From contig NZ_CP076129.1 in the NCBI RefSeq assembly GCF_018736065.1, positions 1,537,501 through 1,601,500 on the forward strand: a DNA stretch of 64,000 nt, read 5' to 3'. Made by a program: the position numbers and the translations under genes. This DNA is from Flammeovirga kamogawensis (GTDB taxonomy: Bacteria > Bacteroidota > Bacteroidia > Cytophagales > Flammeovirgaceae). This document shows, one piece after another, positions 15,897-22,174 of the stretch; the first letter of the stretch is position 1, and each line of letters opens with the position of its first letter. The notes below the pieces were generated by a model. It ran no database searches, was not told the origin of the DNA, and saw only the letters and a list, made by a program, of their open reading frames with translations.

Positions 15897-17966
15897 GTGG
15901 TACGACAATTAGCATTAATATATTACGCACTTTTATTTTTTTTGAGTTCATTTATCTTTCTACACTCTGATTCTTATGCTGATAATTTAAAGCAAAATGA
16001 TCAAGAAAAATTAGAGATTTATCTAGACAAGGCTTTTCATGCGTTAAGGAATTTATCAGATTCAACTATTTATTATGCAGAGCACCTTTTAAATTTATCA
16101 AAAGGATATAATAATATTAAAGGAGAGAACTTTGCTTATCAAATTTTAGGGTCTTACTATATTAAAAAAGGTCAGATTACTTTAGGATTTGATTATCAAA
16201 TGCGTGCTTTAGCATTATCTGAATCTGAAAAAGATTGGACTAATGTATCTACCATTAATAATAATATTGGGGTTTATTTTTTTCGAAAAAAAGATTACGA
16301 AAAAGCTTTAAAATATTATCAAGCTGCTTTAAAAGCCATACATAGAGATATGGAGGAGGCTCCTGAAATTACGAATGATCTGTATGATCATGAAGTAAGT
16401 ATGATGCTTAATATTGGTGAAGTGTATTTGATGTGGGAACAATATGAATTGGCTCTAAAATACGAAGATGCTGCATTAATAAATGCCATGAAATATCAAT
16501 TTTCGGATTCTGAAGCCTATATTTTAGCAGTTAAAGCACAAATTTTATATCAATTAGGAAAAGAGAAAGATGCACTCAAACATATTTCTGAAGCTCTTAT
16601 TTATTTTAAAAAAACAGCTAATGTAGATGCACAATTAGAGTATGAGCTCATTTATGCAAAATACCAATTTGAATCAAAATATTATGATAAAGCAAGGAAG
16701 TCTGCATTGTCAGTTTTAGCGTTAAGTGAACTAAAAGAAGCAAAGCATTGGAATTGTGAAGCCTATGAATTATTGTCAATCATAGAAAAACAAACAGGAC
16801 ATTGGAAATCAGCTTTTCAATATCAATCAAAATATACCTTATTAAAACAAGAACTTGATAATAATGAAATAACTGCTCGTTTAACTGATATTAAAGAATC
16901 TTATAATGCTGATAAAAAGAATGCTGAAATTTATGCATTGAAAATTCAGAATGAGCTAACTGAACAAGTAGTGAGCCATCAAACTAAGTTTATTTATGTG
17001 ATGGTAATTGTTTTGTTTTTGGGTATTATAAGTGTTTACTTCCTTTTAAAATTCAACAATAATATAAAGAGTGCTTACCATAAAATTTCTGAGAAAAACT
17101 CTGAAATTGAAGCTCAATCAGAAGAAATTCTATCTCAACGAGATCATTTACAGGAATATGTAGAAATGCTTGATTCTAAAAATAGAAGAATTTCATCAGC
17201 ATTAAATTATGCACATAGAATACAGTCTGCAACATTACCATCTCGAAAGTCTATAGAACTTCTAGTTGATAAATTAATATTGGTATATAAACCAAGAGAT
17301 ATTGTGTCAGGTGATTTTTATTATTCTTCTGGAATTTTAAATAGAAATAATGAAAAAATAGGAGTAGTAGCTGGATTGGATTGTACAGGACATGGAATTC
17401 CTGGTGCTTTTATGTCTTTAATAGGTAATGGTATTTTAAACGAACTCATAAAAGTTGAAAATTATACTTGTCCAAGTGAAATTCTAGAACAATTGAATAT
17501 TCGTATACAAGACACCTTAAAACAAAAAGATATTTCTACTATCCAAGATGGCATGGATATATCAATTTGTACAATTAATTATACACAAAAAACAGCGACT
17601 ATAAGCAGTGCAAAAAGTTCTTGGTTGTATTTTCAGAATGATAGAATGCACGTAATGAAAGGGTGTAGGAGAAGCATTGGCGGTATTGATTTACATACAC
17701 ACCCTTTTGTAAGTCATACTATTGATCTAAGTTCTTCGCCAACGCAGTTTTATTTTTATTCAGACGGTTATCAAGATCAAATAGGGGGTCCCAAAAATAA
17801 GAAATTCCTTGTCAAGAGGTTTAGAAATTTAATTGCAAGCATACAACACTTAGCGCCAAATAAACAAGAAGAGCTTTTACAAAAGTCATTAGAAGATTGG
17901 AGATCAATAGATGATGAACCCCAGACTGATGATATTTTGGTGTTTGGCTTTACTTTAAAAGCATAA
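15897..17966 (+). CDS. TPR protein with SpoIIE/PP2C-type phosphatase domain
   Basis: The start is a GTG at 15897; this gives a signal or anchor helix (about residues 6-25), and no in-frame ATG lies nearby. Residues about 45-320 contain tandem TPRs. A membrane helix follows near 364-384, then a coiled coil to about 430, then a SpoIIE phosphatase domain (about 455-688). VSGDFYY and GLDCTGHGIPGAFMSLIG provide the metal-binding Asp residues, and QTDDILVFGF is the last. The layout is a periplasmic sensor joined to a cytoplasmic Ser/Thr phosphatase, common in Cytophagales. The likely target is an anti-anti-sigma-type protein, but none is encoded next to it. Confidence 0.85.
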   Translation: MVRQLALIYYALLFFLSSFIFLHSDSYADNLKQNDQEKLEIYLDKAFHALRNLSDSTIYYAEHLLNLSKGYNNIKGENFAYQILGSYYIKKGQITLGFDYQMRALALSESEKDWTNVSTINNNIGVYFFRKKDYEKALKYYQAALKAIHRDMEEAPEITNDLYDHEVSMMLNIGEVYLMWEQYELALKYEDAALINAMKYQFSDSEAYILAVKAQILYQLGKEKDALKHISEALIYFKKTANVDAQLEYELIYAKYQFESKYYDKARKSALSVLALSELKEAKHWNCEAYELLSIIEKQTGHWKSAFQYQSKYTLLKQELDNNEITARLTDIKESYNADKKNAEIYALKIQNELTEQVVSHQTKFIYVMVIVLFLGIISVYFLLKFNNNIKSAYHKISEKNSEIEAQSEEILSQRDHLQEYVEMLDSKNRRISSALNYAHRIQSATLPSRKSIELLVDKLILVYKPRDIVSGDFYYSSGILNRNNEKIGVVAGLDCTGHGIPGAFMSLIGNGILNELIKVENYTCPSEILEQLNIRIQDTLKQKDISTIQDGMDISICTINYTQKTATISSAKSSWLYFQNDRMHVMKGCRRSIGGIDLHTHPFVSHTIDLSSSPTQFYFYSDGYQDQIGGPKNKKFLVKRFRNLIASIQHLAPNKQEELLQKSLEDWRSIDDEPQTDDILVFGFTLKA

Positions 17967-18025
17967 TTAATTGGTTTGAATTTGAAATAACCATGATCAA
18001 CTCTAAAAATACCTAAAAATGGGTA

Positions 18026-18057
18026 TTGCCCTAAGTGGTGTTTAAAGGTTATATTTG
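18026..18057 (+). promoter_or_regulatory. consensus Bacteroidota promoter (TTG-N21-TATATTTG)
   Basis: TTG at 18026-18028 is separated by 21 bp from TATATTTG at 18050-18057. The same elements and spacing occur before the amidinotransferase gene. No ORF follows before a terminator, so this promoter would drive a short RNA. Confidence 0.6.
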
Positions 18058-18063
18058 TATATA

Positions 18064-18190
18064 TCAATTAAGGAAATAAGTTATTTCTTTATCGATACCA
18101 AAAAAAGAATTTAAGTCAAATAAGTAGTTATATTTCTTACATGAATTGTAAGATACAAAAAGAGAGAGGTTTATGACCTCTCTTTTTTAT
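18064..18190 (+). ncRNA. candidate small RNA, about 125 nt
   Basis: The predicted start lies about 7 bp after the -7 element, and the RNA would end in the T-run after the hairpin at 18157-18188. Three stem-loops are visible: 18070-18090 (AAGGAAATAA / TTATTTCTTT), 18136-18152 (CTTACA / TGTAAG) and the terminator. It holds no ORF of note. It matches no RNA family I recognise. Both ends are predicted. Confidence 0.4.
18157..18188 (+). terminator. intrinsic terminator
   Basis: AAAAAGAGAGAGGT pairs with ACCTCTCTTTTTT around a 5-nt loop and ends in a T-rich tail. It lies 190 bp after the phosphatase stop codon and ends the candidate small RNA. Confidence 0.85.
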
Positions 18191-18340
18191 TTACAAAGAC
18201 TTAAAACAAAATAAGTAGAAATATGAAATATTTCAGATTTTAGTATCATTAAGATAAAAAGCTGAAAATATAACAACTTTACTTATATTGTTTGAGTTAA
18301 AACAATATATACTATTTATATCAAAATTATAACTACAACA

Positions 18341-18793
18341 ATGAAAACGATTTTATTATTAGCATGTGTACTATTTTTTTCTTTACCAAAAGTGTTTGCC
18401 CAAAATATTGAAGGTATAGAAATAGGACAAAAAGATCAGCAAGAAACATTTATTACAGAAGGGGGGATAACTTATCAGTTGATGCCTGTAGTAGAAGAAG
18501 ATTCAGAATATTGCAGTGGAGTTATGTATTTACCAGTAAATAATGATACGCATATCGCTACAACCTTAGATCATGAAGAATGCAGAGCATTTGAGCGATT
18601 TGTTAAATCTGAATATACTATTGAATTAGAAGAAAAATACAATTATAACCATAATAGTGTTTTGAAAACATCCTTTGTAGATAACATTGAGTACGAAATT
18701 AACTTCGAAAAAGTAGGAGAGGAATATGATACTTTCTTTGTTGTTTGGTATGGCGATATTGATCAAAAACAACTTGATAAAAATGTAAAATAA
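18341..18793 (+). CDS. secreted hypothetical protein
   Basis: This is a 150-residue protein with a signal peptide (about 1-20, cleavage near VFAQ). The mature part is acidic and has two Cys (CSGV and EECRAF) that could form a disulfide in the periplasm. I do not recognise a family. It precedes the thiamine-binding protein gene by 80 bp on the same strand, which may or may not be an operon. Confidence 0.65.
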   Translation: MKTILLLACVLFFSLPKVFAQNIEGIEIGQKDQQETFITEGGITYQLMPVVEEDSEYCSGVMYLPVNNDTHIATTLDHEECRAFERFVKSEYTIELEEKYNYNHNSVLKTSFVDNIEYEINFEKVGEEYDTFFVVWYGDIDQKQLDKNVK

Positions 18794-18873
18794 AGCCTAG
18801 TTATTTTAGAATTGTTTTAAGTTTAACATTGAATCATTTAGCTTTGTGTTTCACTTAAACAAGTAAAAGAATA

Positions 18874-19185
18874 ATGGGTGTAATAATGAATTTCGCAATT
18901 TTCCCAATTGATAAGGGAGATCATATTGGAGAATATGTAAGTAAAGTTGTTCAACATATTAAGGAAACAGGGTTAACGTATCAGTTTTCTCCTATGGGGA
19001 CAATTATAGAAGCAGAAACGGTGACAGAATTATTAAAAGTAGTTGATGATGCTTACAAAATAATGGATCCAATTTCTGACCGTATTTATTGTGTAATGAA
19101 TATGGATTCTAATAAGAATAAATCAAATATGATTAAGTCTAAAACAGCCTCCGTTGAAAAACGTATTGGAACTGTGAATAAATAA
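18874..19185 (+). CDS. MTH1187-family thiamine-binding protein
   Basis: This 103-residue protein has the small ferredoxin-like fold of the MTH1187/YkoF-like family: NFAIFPIDKGDHIGEYVSKVV, then YQFSPMGTIIEAETVTELLKVV with the conserved MGT(I)IE motif. Members bind thiamine or related compounds in the cytoplasm. The C-terminus is Lys- and Asn-rich. Translation may begin at the fifth residue. No thiamine synthesis or transport gene lies beside it. Confidence 0.85.
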   Translation: MGVIMNFAIFPIDKGDHIGEYVSKVVQHIKETGLTYQFSPMGTIIEAETVTELLKVVDDAYKIMDPISDRIYCVMNMDSNKNKSNMIKSKTASVEKRIGTVNK

Positions 19186-19190
19186 GGAAG

Positions 19191-19219
19191 AAGGAATTCA
19201 GGTAATGAGTTCCTTTTTT
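19191..19219 (+). terminator. terminator of the thiamine-binding protein gene
   Basis: AAGGAATTC pairs with GAGTTCCTT (one G-U) and is followed by TTTTT, 5 bp past the stop. Confidence 0.8.
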
Positions 19220-19330
19220 GTTTTATATATCTCGATCTAAAGTTGAGGGATAATGGAAATCACATTTAGTAGAGAAAAGTCTGAATAAAAAAACTTCAAC
19301 TATAAAAGTAAACTATAAAGTGAGTCAGTA

Positions 19331-20481
19331 TTGGAAACATCTAATGATGTTGTTGAGTTAGAGTGGTCGTATGGAGAAACTTTTTTTCAAGCAGAACACC
19401 GTATTACCGAATTTTCTATTCATTTAGGAAATGTATTGGCTACCATGTACGATAATGGTACTATTTTGTCTTTATCAGATTATTTTCCTTTTGGTTTAGC
19501 CATGGAAGAGCGTACCTATAGAAGTAAGGAATATAGGTATGGGTTTAATGGTAAGGAAAACGATACAGATTTAAGCGGTTCTCAGCTGATACATGATTAT
19601 GGCTTTAGGGTGTATAATCCTGTTATCGGGAAGTTTTTGAGTGTGGATCCGTTGACTAAGTCTTACCCTTGGTATACACCTTATCAGTTTGCGGGGAATA
19701 CTCCTATACAGGCTATTGATTTGGATGGACTAGAAGAATATAAAATTAATAATTCAGATTGGTTTATTGGAAGGATTTTAGTTGATGTTGCTTTAATGAA
19801 TCCTAAAGATGATTATATAGCTTTAAAGAACAAATTATTTTCATGGTCTGGTAATAGTAATGGAGCAATACAGTTAGTTGATCCTGATGCACAATTTAGT
19901 TTAAGAACTGATGATGAAAATGGTAATGAATATATTTTACTAGATTCTGAGGTTCCTCAAAAACTAGCAACATGGGATAAAAAGCTGATCGATAGTAAAT
20001 TAGAAAAACAATTTAGAGATAATCAAGATAGAATTTTAGTAGAATCAACTCATGACGCTGATGAAAAGGTAACCCTGCGGCTATTTATGGTCATATGTAT
20101 GTTGATGCTTCATTTATAGGAACAGGTTTTAATTTTGCTTTAGGAGGTGTTGTAAAAATGCAAGGTAATAATAAAGGGTCTTTTACATCTTATTCTGACC
20201 TTGTTGATGGTATTAGTTTTTGAACTGGAGGAATTGCATTAGGTACTACTTATTATGGTGGAAATCCTATTAATTTTGATATTGATTATAATTTCAAAGG
20301 AGAGAGAAAAGCTTTTAGTGTAGGATCTGGCATTTATAATATAGGGGGATCTATGTCAAGTACACCTGACGATTTTGATGCAAATACATATAATATAGGA
20401 ATAGACATTGGTAAAAGTTGATCTCCTAAAAAATTTGAATCACTTATAAACTTAAATTATAATGAAGGGGAAACAGAGTAA
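19331..20481 (+). pseudogene. RHS tip cassette 1, 5'-truncated and broken
   Basis: Only the end of an RHS core is present, up to about residue 137. It includes LGNVLATMYDNGTILSLSDY, YRYGFNGKENDTD and the hallmark RVYNPVIGKFLSVDPLT. A variable C-terminal domain follows. The YD-repeat shell is missing, because an in-frame stop lies just upstream. A one-base loss near 20066 shifts the frame (stop at 20117), and the alternative frame continues with GNPAAIYGHMYVDAS. That frame is then interrupted by TGA at 20221 and 20419 before its TAA at 20479-20481. Both TGA fall where Trp would fit (GISF-x-TGG, GKS-x-SPKK), consistent with TGG to TGA mutations. The tip is Gly-rich. It is a decaying orphan toxin-like cassette. 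Confidence 0.75.
19531..19656 (+). repeat. RHS core direct repeat, copy 1
   Basis: This 126-bp segment is 91% identical (11 differences) to 21121-21246. It encodes the YRYGFNGKENDTD to FLSVDPLT part of the RHS core, the region through which tips recombine in other RHS loci. Confidence 0.85.
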
Positions 20482-21118: not shown

Positions 21119-22174
21119 ATATATAGGTATGGGTTTAATGGCAAAGAAAACGATACGGATTTTAGCAGTTCTCAGCTGATTCAGGATTATGGCTTTAGGG
21201 TGTATAATCCAGTGATTGGAAAGTTTTTGAGTGTGGATCCGTTGACGGCTAGCTATTCTTCTTGGACACCTTATCCTTTTGCAATGAATAAAGTTATTAA
21301 TGGGGTAGATTTAGATGAATTAGAATGGGTACTCAGAATTTATAGTGATGACCTTTTCTCAAAATTTAATAAAGCTATGGATGATAATGACTTATTAGGG
21401 ATGAGAACAATTACTAATTATGGAAGAACTCACCATTATCCAAGTGATTATGGTCTAGAAAATATTGGAAGAAATCAATCAGATTTTTCTGTTCAATTAT
21501 ATAAAAATAGTAGTGCTCCTGAAGGGGTTACAGTTGATTATTATCATTGGAAAGATAATAATCCCAATACAAAATCATTAGTTAATTCAGGAAATAACTA
21601 TTTTGCACCGACAAAAAATGATGAATTACCATTTGATGCTCTTTATCTTGTGGATATAAAATATGGAATCTCATTTTATGGTGAGAAGGACTTTATAAAT
21701 GATAGTGAAATAAGTGTGGCAGGAACAGGCTTATTTGAATATGGAAAAACAATGGGGCAAGGTTATATCAAAGGATTTGGATTTAGTCAATATGTTGGTA
21801 CAAGTTATGGAGGAGCGTTTGGAGGTGGTTTAGGGGCAGATATTGTTTTATCTGGAACAGGAAGCTATGTTGGAGATTATTTTCCAAACCCTTACAATTT
21901 TGCAGGAAATGGCGGAAGTGGAGGTCTTGATGTAGATATAGCTGTATTTAGTTTTGGGGTTTCAAAATGGACTGGATATAATGATGAAGGAAATACTATA
22001 TGGAGAGGAGTAAACTATACCGTAGGAGGAGGATTTGGTGCAAAGTTAACAGAAATGTTAGATACAAAAAGTACTATTATTTTTCCAAAAACAGGTTATT
22101 CAATTAGTGAAAAAATGTGGAACACAAATAGTATAAATTCTGATAATATAACTCCTATTATTAATGAAAAATAG
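21119..22174 (+). CDS. RHS tip cassette 2, 5'-truncated but open
   Basis: The frame is open from 21119, just after an in-frame TGA, to TAG at 22174 (351 codons). It starts inside the RHS core (YRYGFNGKENDTD, RVYNPVIGKFLSVDPLT) and has no ATG; a GTG at 21200 is the only plausible start. The variable part begins near codon 67 and is Gly- and aromatic-rich toward the end (GTSYGGAFGGGLGADIVLSG, NGGSGGLDVDIAVFSFG). I recognise no enzyme motif. Lack of a start and of the shell suggests a silent tip, used only after recombination into a full rhs gene, which is not in this window. Confidence 0.7.
   Translation: MYRYGFNGKENDTDFSSSQLIQDYGFRVYNPVIGKFLSVDPLTASYSSWTPYPFAMNKVINGVDLDELEWVLRIYSDDLFSKFNKAMDDNDLLGMRTITNYGRTHHYPSDYGLENIGRNQSDFSVQLYKNSSAPEGVTVDYYHWKDNNPNTKSLVNSGNNYFAPTKNDELPFDALYLVDIKYGISFYGEKDFINDSEISVAGTGLFEYGKTMGQGYIKGFGFSQYVGTSYGGAFGGGLGADIVLSGTGSYVGDYFPNPYNFAGNGGSGGLDVDIAVFSFGVSKWTGYNDEGNTIWRGVNYTVGGGFGAKLTEMLDTKSTIIFPKTGYSISEKMWNTNSINSDNITPIINEK
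21121..21246 (+). repeat. RHS core direct repeat, copy 2
   Basis: Partner of 19531-19656, in the same orientation, offset by 1590 bp and 91% identical. Confidence 0.85.

Follow-up and report, generated by a model that had tools for sequence, protein, structure and literature searches.

Does the spacer between two protein genes of Flammeovirga kamogawensis hold the gene of a small RNA, and if so, how might such an RNA be controlled and act? The locus lies in a stretch of 64,000 nucleotides (the window, in which all unprefixed coordinates below are counted), where an earlier note, made from the sequence alone, had proposed a candidate small RNA enclosed by a consensus promoter and an intrinsic terminator. 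We examined this proposal in the window and its own genome (G000, 6.97 Mb), across a genus set of nine genomes (G000-G008, which include G000), and more widely in the Bacteroidota. Comparison gives good support to a real small RNA gene, one that recurs in each of the nine genus genomes searched. That it is an independent gene for a trans-acting RNA under the control of a GerE-type response regulator is the reading we consider reasonably probable.

Parts of the predicted RNA gene

All elements of the arrangement claimed in the earlier note, a TTG-N21-box promoter and an intrinsic terminator enclosing about 125 nt, could be located in the letters. The TTG lies at 18026-18028 and is followed, after 21 nt, by TATATTTG at 18050-18057, and an AATACC...GGTATT inverted repeat at 18008-18027 abuts the TTG of the -33 box. 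This repeat had been described as lying on the -33 box; it is indeed present, but as an operator-like 20-mer upstream of that box and touching it. The features are as follows.

18008-18028, + strand: operator AATACCTAAAAATGGGTATTG, that is, AATACCTA-N4-TGGGTATT together with the -33 TTG; two TACC half-sites in an inverted repeat with 7-2-7 spacing
18050-18057, + strand: -7 box TATATTTG (TAnnTTTG), 21 nt past the TTG
18063-18188, + strand: predicted small RNA of about 125 nt, its start estimated at 6 nt after the -7 box
18063-18096, + strand: 5' hairpin from the fold, with a version in G002; not common to the family
18111-18130, + strand: core TTAAGTCAAATAAGTAGTTA, unpaired in the RNA's own fold; proposed interaction region
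18135-18153, + strand: hairpin 1 (the second hairpin), its pairing kept and its sequence differing by subtype
18158-18188, + strand: intrinsic terminator hairpin with U-run, 14 pairs, loop TAT
18341-18793, + strand: gene for a 150-aa protein that looks secreted, the downstream neighbour; considered to lie outside the RNA unit

The segment 18063-18191 folds at -30.2 kcal/mol (z -4.7), and 0 of 200 shuffles folded as low. Both of the further stem-loops described earlier appear in this fold, although the first of them, the 5' hairpin, does not recur through the family. In agreement with the claim that the region holds no ORF, no + strand ORF of at least 20 aa overlaps 18040-18200, and the two listed ORFs near the RNA lie on the - strand and touch only its ends. 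The region of the RNA has no match in Rfam release 15 at the gathering score (best 24.1 bits, where 80 are needed), and the 150-aa protein has none in Pfam or NCBIfam. Upstream of the RNA, Pfam identifies the G000 gene as a SpoIIE-type phosphatase. A generic sigma-70 scan of 16000-20000 reported 21 promoter-like sites, where shuffles average 24.4; such a scan is uninformative for Bacteroidota and, as it gave no excess, the case against a chance resemblance rests on comparison. The terminator scan reported the RNA's 3' hairpin solely as a - strand site.

Elsewhere in the window, a partial 23S rRNA gene and a 5S rRNA gene occupy 1-1829, and the ORFs at 19331-20119 and 21200-22174 have by eye a common Rhs-like tip motif, YNPVIGKFLSVDPLT, with differing C-terminal parts; to the eye they resemble detached Rhs cassettes.

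Conservation and covariation in the genus and beyond

A DNA search of 58 genomes (E up to 10) was informative within the genus and returned largely short AT-rich matches elsewhere. The closest relative, G002, shares a 92% identical block over 18005-18191, whose right edge is fixed by an insertion, with the match continuing beyond it at query 272-374 (84%); where the block stops therefore says nothing about where the RNA ends. The inserted DNA (L002, 1771-2205) carries between RNA and downstream gene a transposase-like ORF, IS200-type by eye. Operator and core are also shared by three further genus members. Searching 18 family genomes for the core with up to 3 mismatches gave exact matches in five but missed a second subtype (B), and one 3-mismatch match in G003 had, by eye, no operator or T-run terminator. 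The subtype B RNAs, in four genomes, were recovered only by using the downstream 150-aa protein as an anchor. This protein is encoded once in each of the nine genus genomes and in 0 of nine other family genomes (E up to 1e-4), and upstream of its gene stand, in every one of the nine, the operator, core, hairpin and terminator. The candidate small RNA of the earlier note is supported by this recurrence, as one strong copy at the same locus in all nine, and by the covariation of its stems described below.

The nine RNAs fall into two subtypes, with the core TTAAGTCAAATAAGTAGTTA in G000, G002, G003, G007 and G008, and TTAAGTTACAAAAGTAGTTA in G001, G004, G005 and G006. For subtype B, the estimated transcript length is 77-80 nt, so that the size of about 125 nt stands as a prediction for the window's own RNA but does not extend to these four members, and the 5' hairpin is no family feature. 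The gene upstream is a SpoIIE-type phosphatase by likeness in G002, G007 and G008, and a different gene in G001 and G003-G006. The earlier note had looked to relatives for conservation of the promoter and stems, and these are kept throughout the genus set; the operator and -33 TTG are present at the RNA in 9 of 9 genomes, but a strict -7 box at the right spacing (20-21 nt) in six, being degenerate in G003, G007 and G008.

In the nine-sequence alignment, 96.0% of the cells of hairpin 1 and the terminator are paired, against at most 64.2% for control structures slid by 1-3 columns, and 11 of the 21 pairs have changed on both sides. The covariation score of 0.508 compares with a shuffle mean of 0.198, with 0 of 500 shuffles as high; one of the five covariation measures, that of further pair types, was not above shuffles (137/500). 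By eye, hairpin 1 is displaced by one column between the subtypes in the alignment. The transcript is thus predicted to end in a hairpin and intrinsic terminator, which are shown by fold and covariation to define the modelled 3' end. Of the 20 positions of the core, TTAAGT-N5-AAGTAGTTA, 17 do not vary among the nine genomes, while the protein encoded next to it has diverged, being 38-46% identical to its G000 counterpart in seven of the other eight genomes (81% in G002). Folding leaves the core unpaired in G000, G002 and G003 and predicts weak pairing within it in the other six, differently in the two subtypes; an exposed seed is therefore seen for those three alone, and this weak pairing lowers the odds that the core acts by pairing with mRNAs.

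A covariance search, proposed earlier for the Flammeovirgaceae, gave strong matches in all nine genus genomes and no strong match outside the genus, where it led to one candidate in a sister genus. The genus RNAs score 82.4-97.2 bits, by construction, as these nine built the model; among 49 other genomes the best match reached 41.3 bits (E 0.0016), with matches up to E 0.1 in ten of them, and G007 holds one additional weak match (39.8 bits). When the operator was scored at 11 of the 17 weak matches, those with loci, nine reached at most 12/17 and two 13-14/17. Both of the latter (E 0.013 and 0.067) belong to G015 and G017, the sole searched members of the sister genus g8. Their operators, ATTACCCTCTGTAGGGTATTG and ATTACCCGATGGTGGGTATTG, are followed exactly 20 nt on by a TAnnTTTG box (TACATTTG and TATATTTG, respectively), and the candidate transcript carries TAAGTAATATAAGCATTA, which is in part like the core, and then a terminator. 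It is longer than the genus RNA and has other neighbours, lying by eye between exonuclease-like and OmpA-like genes (about 1300-1750 of L256, G017:C93, and of L260, G015:C474). Of ten more stretches examined, eight came from outside these two genomes, and in these, operator-like sites of at least 14/17 were not followed within 30 nt by a TAnnTTTG box, the stretches from G003 and G040 among them having no operator-like site of that score. The candidate of G015 and G017 is likely a distant relative of the genus RNA, or else a parallel RNA that shares its operator, and represents one lineage. Strict confinement of the RNA to the genus, which we had entertained, is put in doubt by these candidates, although strong matches are still found in the genus only; their existence makes the RNA itself more credible.

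The operator, a second RNA and the candidate regulator

Comparison indicates that the promoter carries a palindromic TACC/GGTA operator set against the -33 box, and its TACC...GGTA half-sites in 7-2-7 arrangement are like NarL-type sites. A strict pattern of operator plus promoter retrieved 16 sites, spread over 10 of the 97 genomes searched; a reversed control gave none. Fourteen of these are in the genus: nine, one per genome, stand at a second RNA; two are those of the window RNA, which fits the strict pattern in G000 and G002 alone among the nine genomes; and three (G000:C1:1883982, before an FKBP-like gene, G005:C211 and G002:C2:1241773) occur in one genome each and are taken as chance or private. 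A relaxed pattern of the operator only, applied to the genus, recovered the site of the window RNA in all nine genomes among 45 sites, against 16 for the reversed control, so that a single relaxed site is weak evidence.

The second RNA lies behind the strict operator in 9 of 9 genus genomes (in G000 from G000:C1:3594683 onward; L062, 1501-1700) and carries, 26-33 nt after the -7 box, a GTTTTTCCACA that is invariant in all nine. It ends in a T-run terminator; in G003 our script took an inner T-run, and the terminator is visible in the sequence. In every genome the gene that follows it encodes a protein of secreted appearance; by eye the nine proteins are alike, and the G000 one has aspartyl-protease and PDZ domains. 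Two RNAs under one operator point to a small regulon with RNA outputs.

A regulator of the NarL/FixJ type, with a GerE domain, would be the most plausible protein to act at the putative operator. One such response regulator has the operator (14-16/16) 63-68 nt before its own start in 4 of 4 orthologues (G001, G004, G005 and G006), and 23 other response-regulator loci score 10-12/16 (27 loci scored in the output, of 30 submitted); in G004, Pfam assigns it Response_reg and GerE domains. The own genome holds no orthologue of this regulator (best match 40% identical), and the operator is absent from both of the paralogues scored there, of nine matches. A palindrome also precedes a response-regulator gene in G094 and stands about 500 nt before one in G021. 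At the self-operator regulator loci (L283-L286, from G004, G006, G001 and G005, respectively), we observed that the G004 gene adjoins one with a Y_Y_Y domain. A hemerythrin-GerE protein, considered as the regulator within the genus, was set aside, the own genome yielding GerE-domain matches only.

The operator also extends to other Bacteroidota. The pattern TACCTA-N4-TRGGTATTG-N20-TAnnTTTG was found at at least 118 loci in named genomes (L066-L183), and 77 of the 80 shown bear, by our reading, Bacteroidota names. At its two free positions the palindrome letters occur in 106 and 102 of the 118 listed sites, and both together in 92, so that the listed sites are true palindromes. In a sample of 395 genomes of the phylum, five have the strict palindrome with promoter (6 sites, 0 in the control); the pattern is thus sparse per genome. 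For 107 of the 118 sites a downstream ORF was available (11 were dropped, having no ORF of at least 90 aa starting within 300 nt; ORFs were trimmed to 600 aa), and Pfam found in these the TonB plug 27 times, FeoB_N 15, FeoA 12, hemerythrin 7 and GerE 5 times, as counts of these operator-linked ORFs alone. A hemerythrin-GerE fusion follows the operator at L068 (5463-6428) and, by eye, at L092, L096 and L141; this protein is perhaps autoregulated and may be a candidate O2, NO or iron sensor. The operator set in these other Bacteroidota looks like an iron-linked regulon.

RyhB, PrrF and FsrA are iron-sparing small RNAs, and the window RNA could be their counterpart, an iron-responsive special case of the explanation that we prefer, in which the operator would mark an iron regulon. 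The resemblance lies in the iron-uptake genes that this operator precedes elsewhere in the phylum, but within the genus the operator is absent from the feo loci: none of 18 feoB loci, two in each of the nine genomes, has it (best 13/17, at one locus). One own-genome feo locus (L267, 300-1412, upstream of feoB) starts with a DtxR-type metal-binding domain fused to FeoA, and its promoter is overlain by a different repeat, TTTAGACAAGCCTAAA (TTTTTAGGTAAGCCTAAAAA in G003, L263). The operator differs, moreover, from the Fur box predicted for Riemerella, as far as the accessible text of PMC5609570 gives it. We therefore regard an iron-sparing role as unlikely, and the iron reading of the window RNA as a lead, not a result. 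The same differences of Fur box and feo repeat speak against Fur or DtxR as the binder, which we consider unlikely also in view of PgMntR, which, according to the part of the published account available, does not bind the feoB1 promoter of P. gingivalis.

Proposed action of the RNA and its significance

In the mechanism that we favour, an independent small RNA, control by a response regulator would be combined with action through the core. A NarL/FixJ-type regulator would bind the operator, most probably as an activator (centred near -46) and possibly as a repressor, and a signal of stress, redox state or metal would turn on the RNA. Its 20-nt core, almost invariant and either unpaired or weakly structured, would then pair with mRNAs in trans and alter their translation or stability. 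Pairing with the adjacent gene is not conserved among the nine genomes and is mostly no better than that of shuffled sequences, the number of shuffles (of 300) at least as good being 33 in G000, 14 in G002, 40 in G003, 129 in G004, 202 in G007, 205 in G008, 213 in G005, 245 in G006 and 295 in G001. Action in cis on that gene was considered because of a 9-nt match, TATAACTAC, noticed by eye in front of the start codon in both G000 and G002, and was rejected, as this match is neither genus-wide nor the best duplex.

The constant association with the 150-aa protein gene raises the question of whether the RNA is instead its 5' leader, an attenuator or riboswitch with a conditional terminator whose read-through would express the gene. 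In all nine genus genomes the RNA does have this same gene downstream, and the second RNA with this operator is likewise upstream of one conserved gene. The distance from the terminator to the most upstream start, however, is 55, 109, 140, 152, 185, 188, 636, 647 and 722 nt in the nine genomes, with gaps of 636-647 nt in G004 and G006, and the transposase-like ORF intervenes in G002. In addition, the terminator arms vary while the core is constant, so the core cannot be their shared antiterminator; G001 and G005 have a TAnnTTTG box shortly upstream of the gene; and the sister-genus candidate has other neighbours. Taken together, the variable distance, the changing upstream gene and the changing arms beside a fixed core favour an independent RNA, and a leader seems to us quite unlikely.

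A different mode of action would be the binding of a protein by the core or a weak hairpin, which would sequester it in the manner of RsmY or CsrB and require no base pairing. GacA is a GerE-domain response regulator that controls the RsmY, RsmZ and CsrB small RNAs through an upstream palindromic site. The window RNA resembles these in being short and terminator-ended, with a palindromic site upstream of its promoter and, as we infer, GerE-type control, and a nearly fixed core would also suit a protein ligand. In contrast, it has TACC half-sites, a Bacteroidota-type promoter and no GGA array: GGA occurs once in six members and three times in G003, G007 and G008, never in the core, and there is no candidate protein. 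We judge this mode of action improbable. That the spacer is a chance AT-rich likeness of a promoter and terminator, or simply a terminator that serves the phosphatase gene upstream, agrees with the lack of excess in the generic promoter scan but is extremely improbable and, in our view, refuted by the comparative data, the unit being conserved and covarying in nine genomes, five of them (G001, G003-G006) with another upstream gene.

Within the Bacteroidota, most known small RNAs come from Bacteroides and Flavobacterium. They include GibS of Bacteroides thetaiotaomicron (PMC7366714) and Rfp18 of Flavobacterium psychrophilum, which the accessible part of its report (PMC9723704) describes as structured and widely conserved in its genus; the window RNA is like these by description, as another Bacteroidota small RNA. 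Similarly, by description only, the proposed regulator may be compared with CdhR (PG1237) of Porphyromonas gingivalis, in the same phylum, a DNA-binding response regulator that, in the text available, acts on the heme-uptake hmu genes (PMC3832793, PMC10101095) and is termed a repressor in PMC2671838; that text names no binding site of CdhR. A literature search on Flammeovirga small RNAs found nothing related, and one on iron-regulon motifs and NarL-type repeats in Bacteroidota, at the level of titles and the beginnings of abstracts, found no description of the operator.

It is tempting, if speculative, to see in these observations a GerE-type regulon across the Bacteroidota, parallel to Fur and DtxR, in which a self-regulating hemerythrin-LuxR protein of Bacteroidales would also regulate feoAB, and which would have been rewired in the genus and its sister genus such that small RNAs became its best conserved products. 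The ties of the operator elsewhere to feoB, TonB receptors and hemerythrin-GerE proteins would then belong to a regulatory network for which we found no description in the literature. If this is true, the window RNA would be part of a metal- or redox-linked small RNA circuit, likewise new to the literature found, which its defined operator, nearly fixed core and sister RNA would make directly testable.
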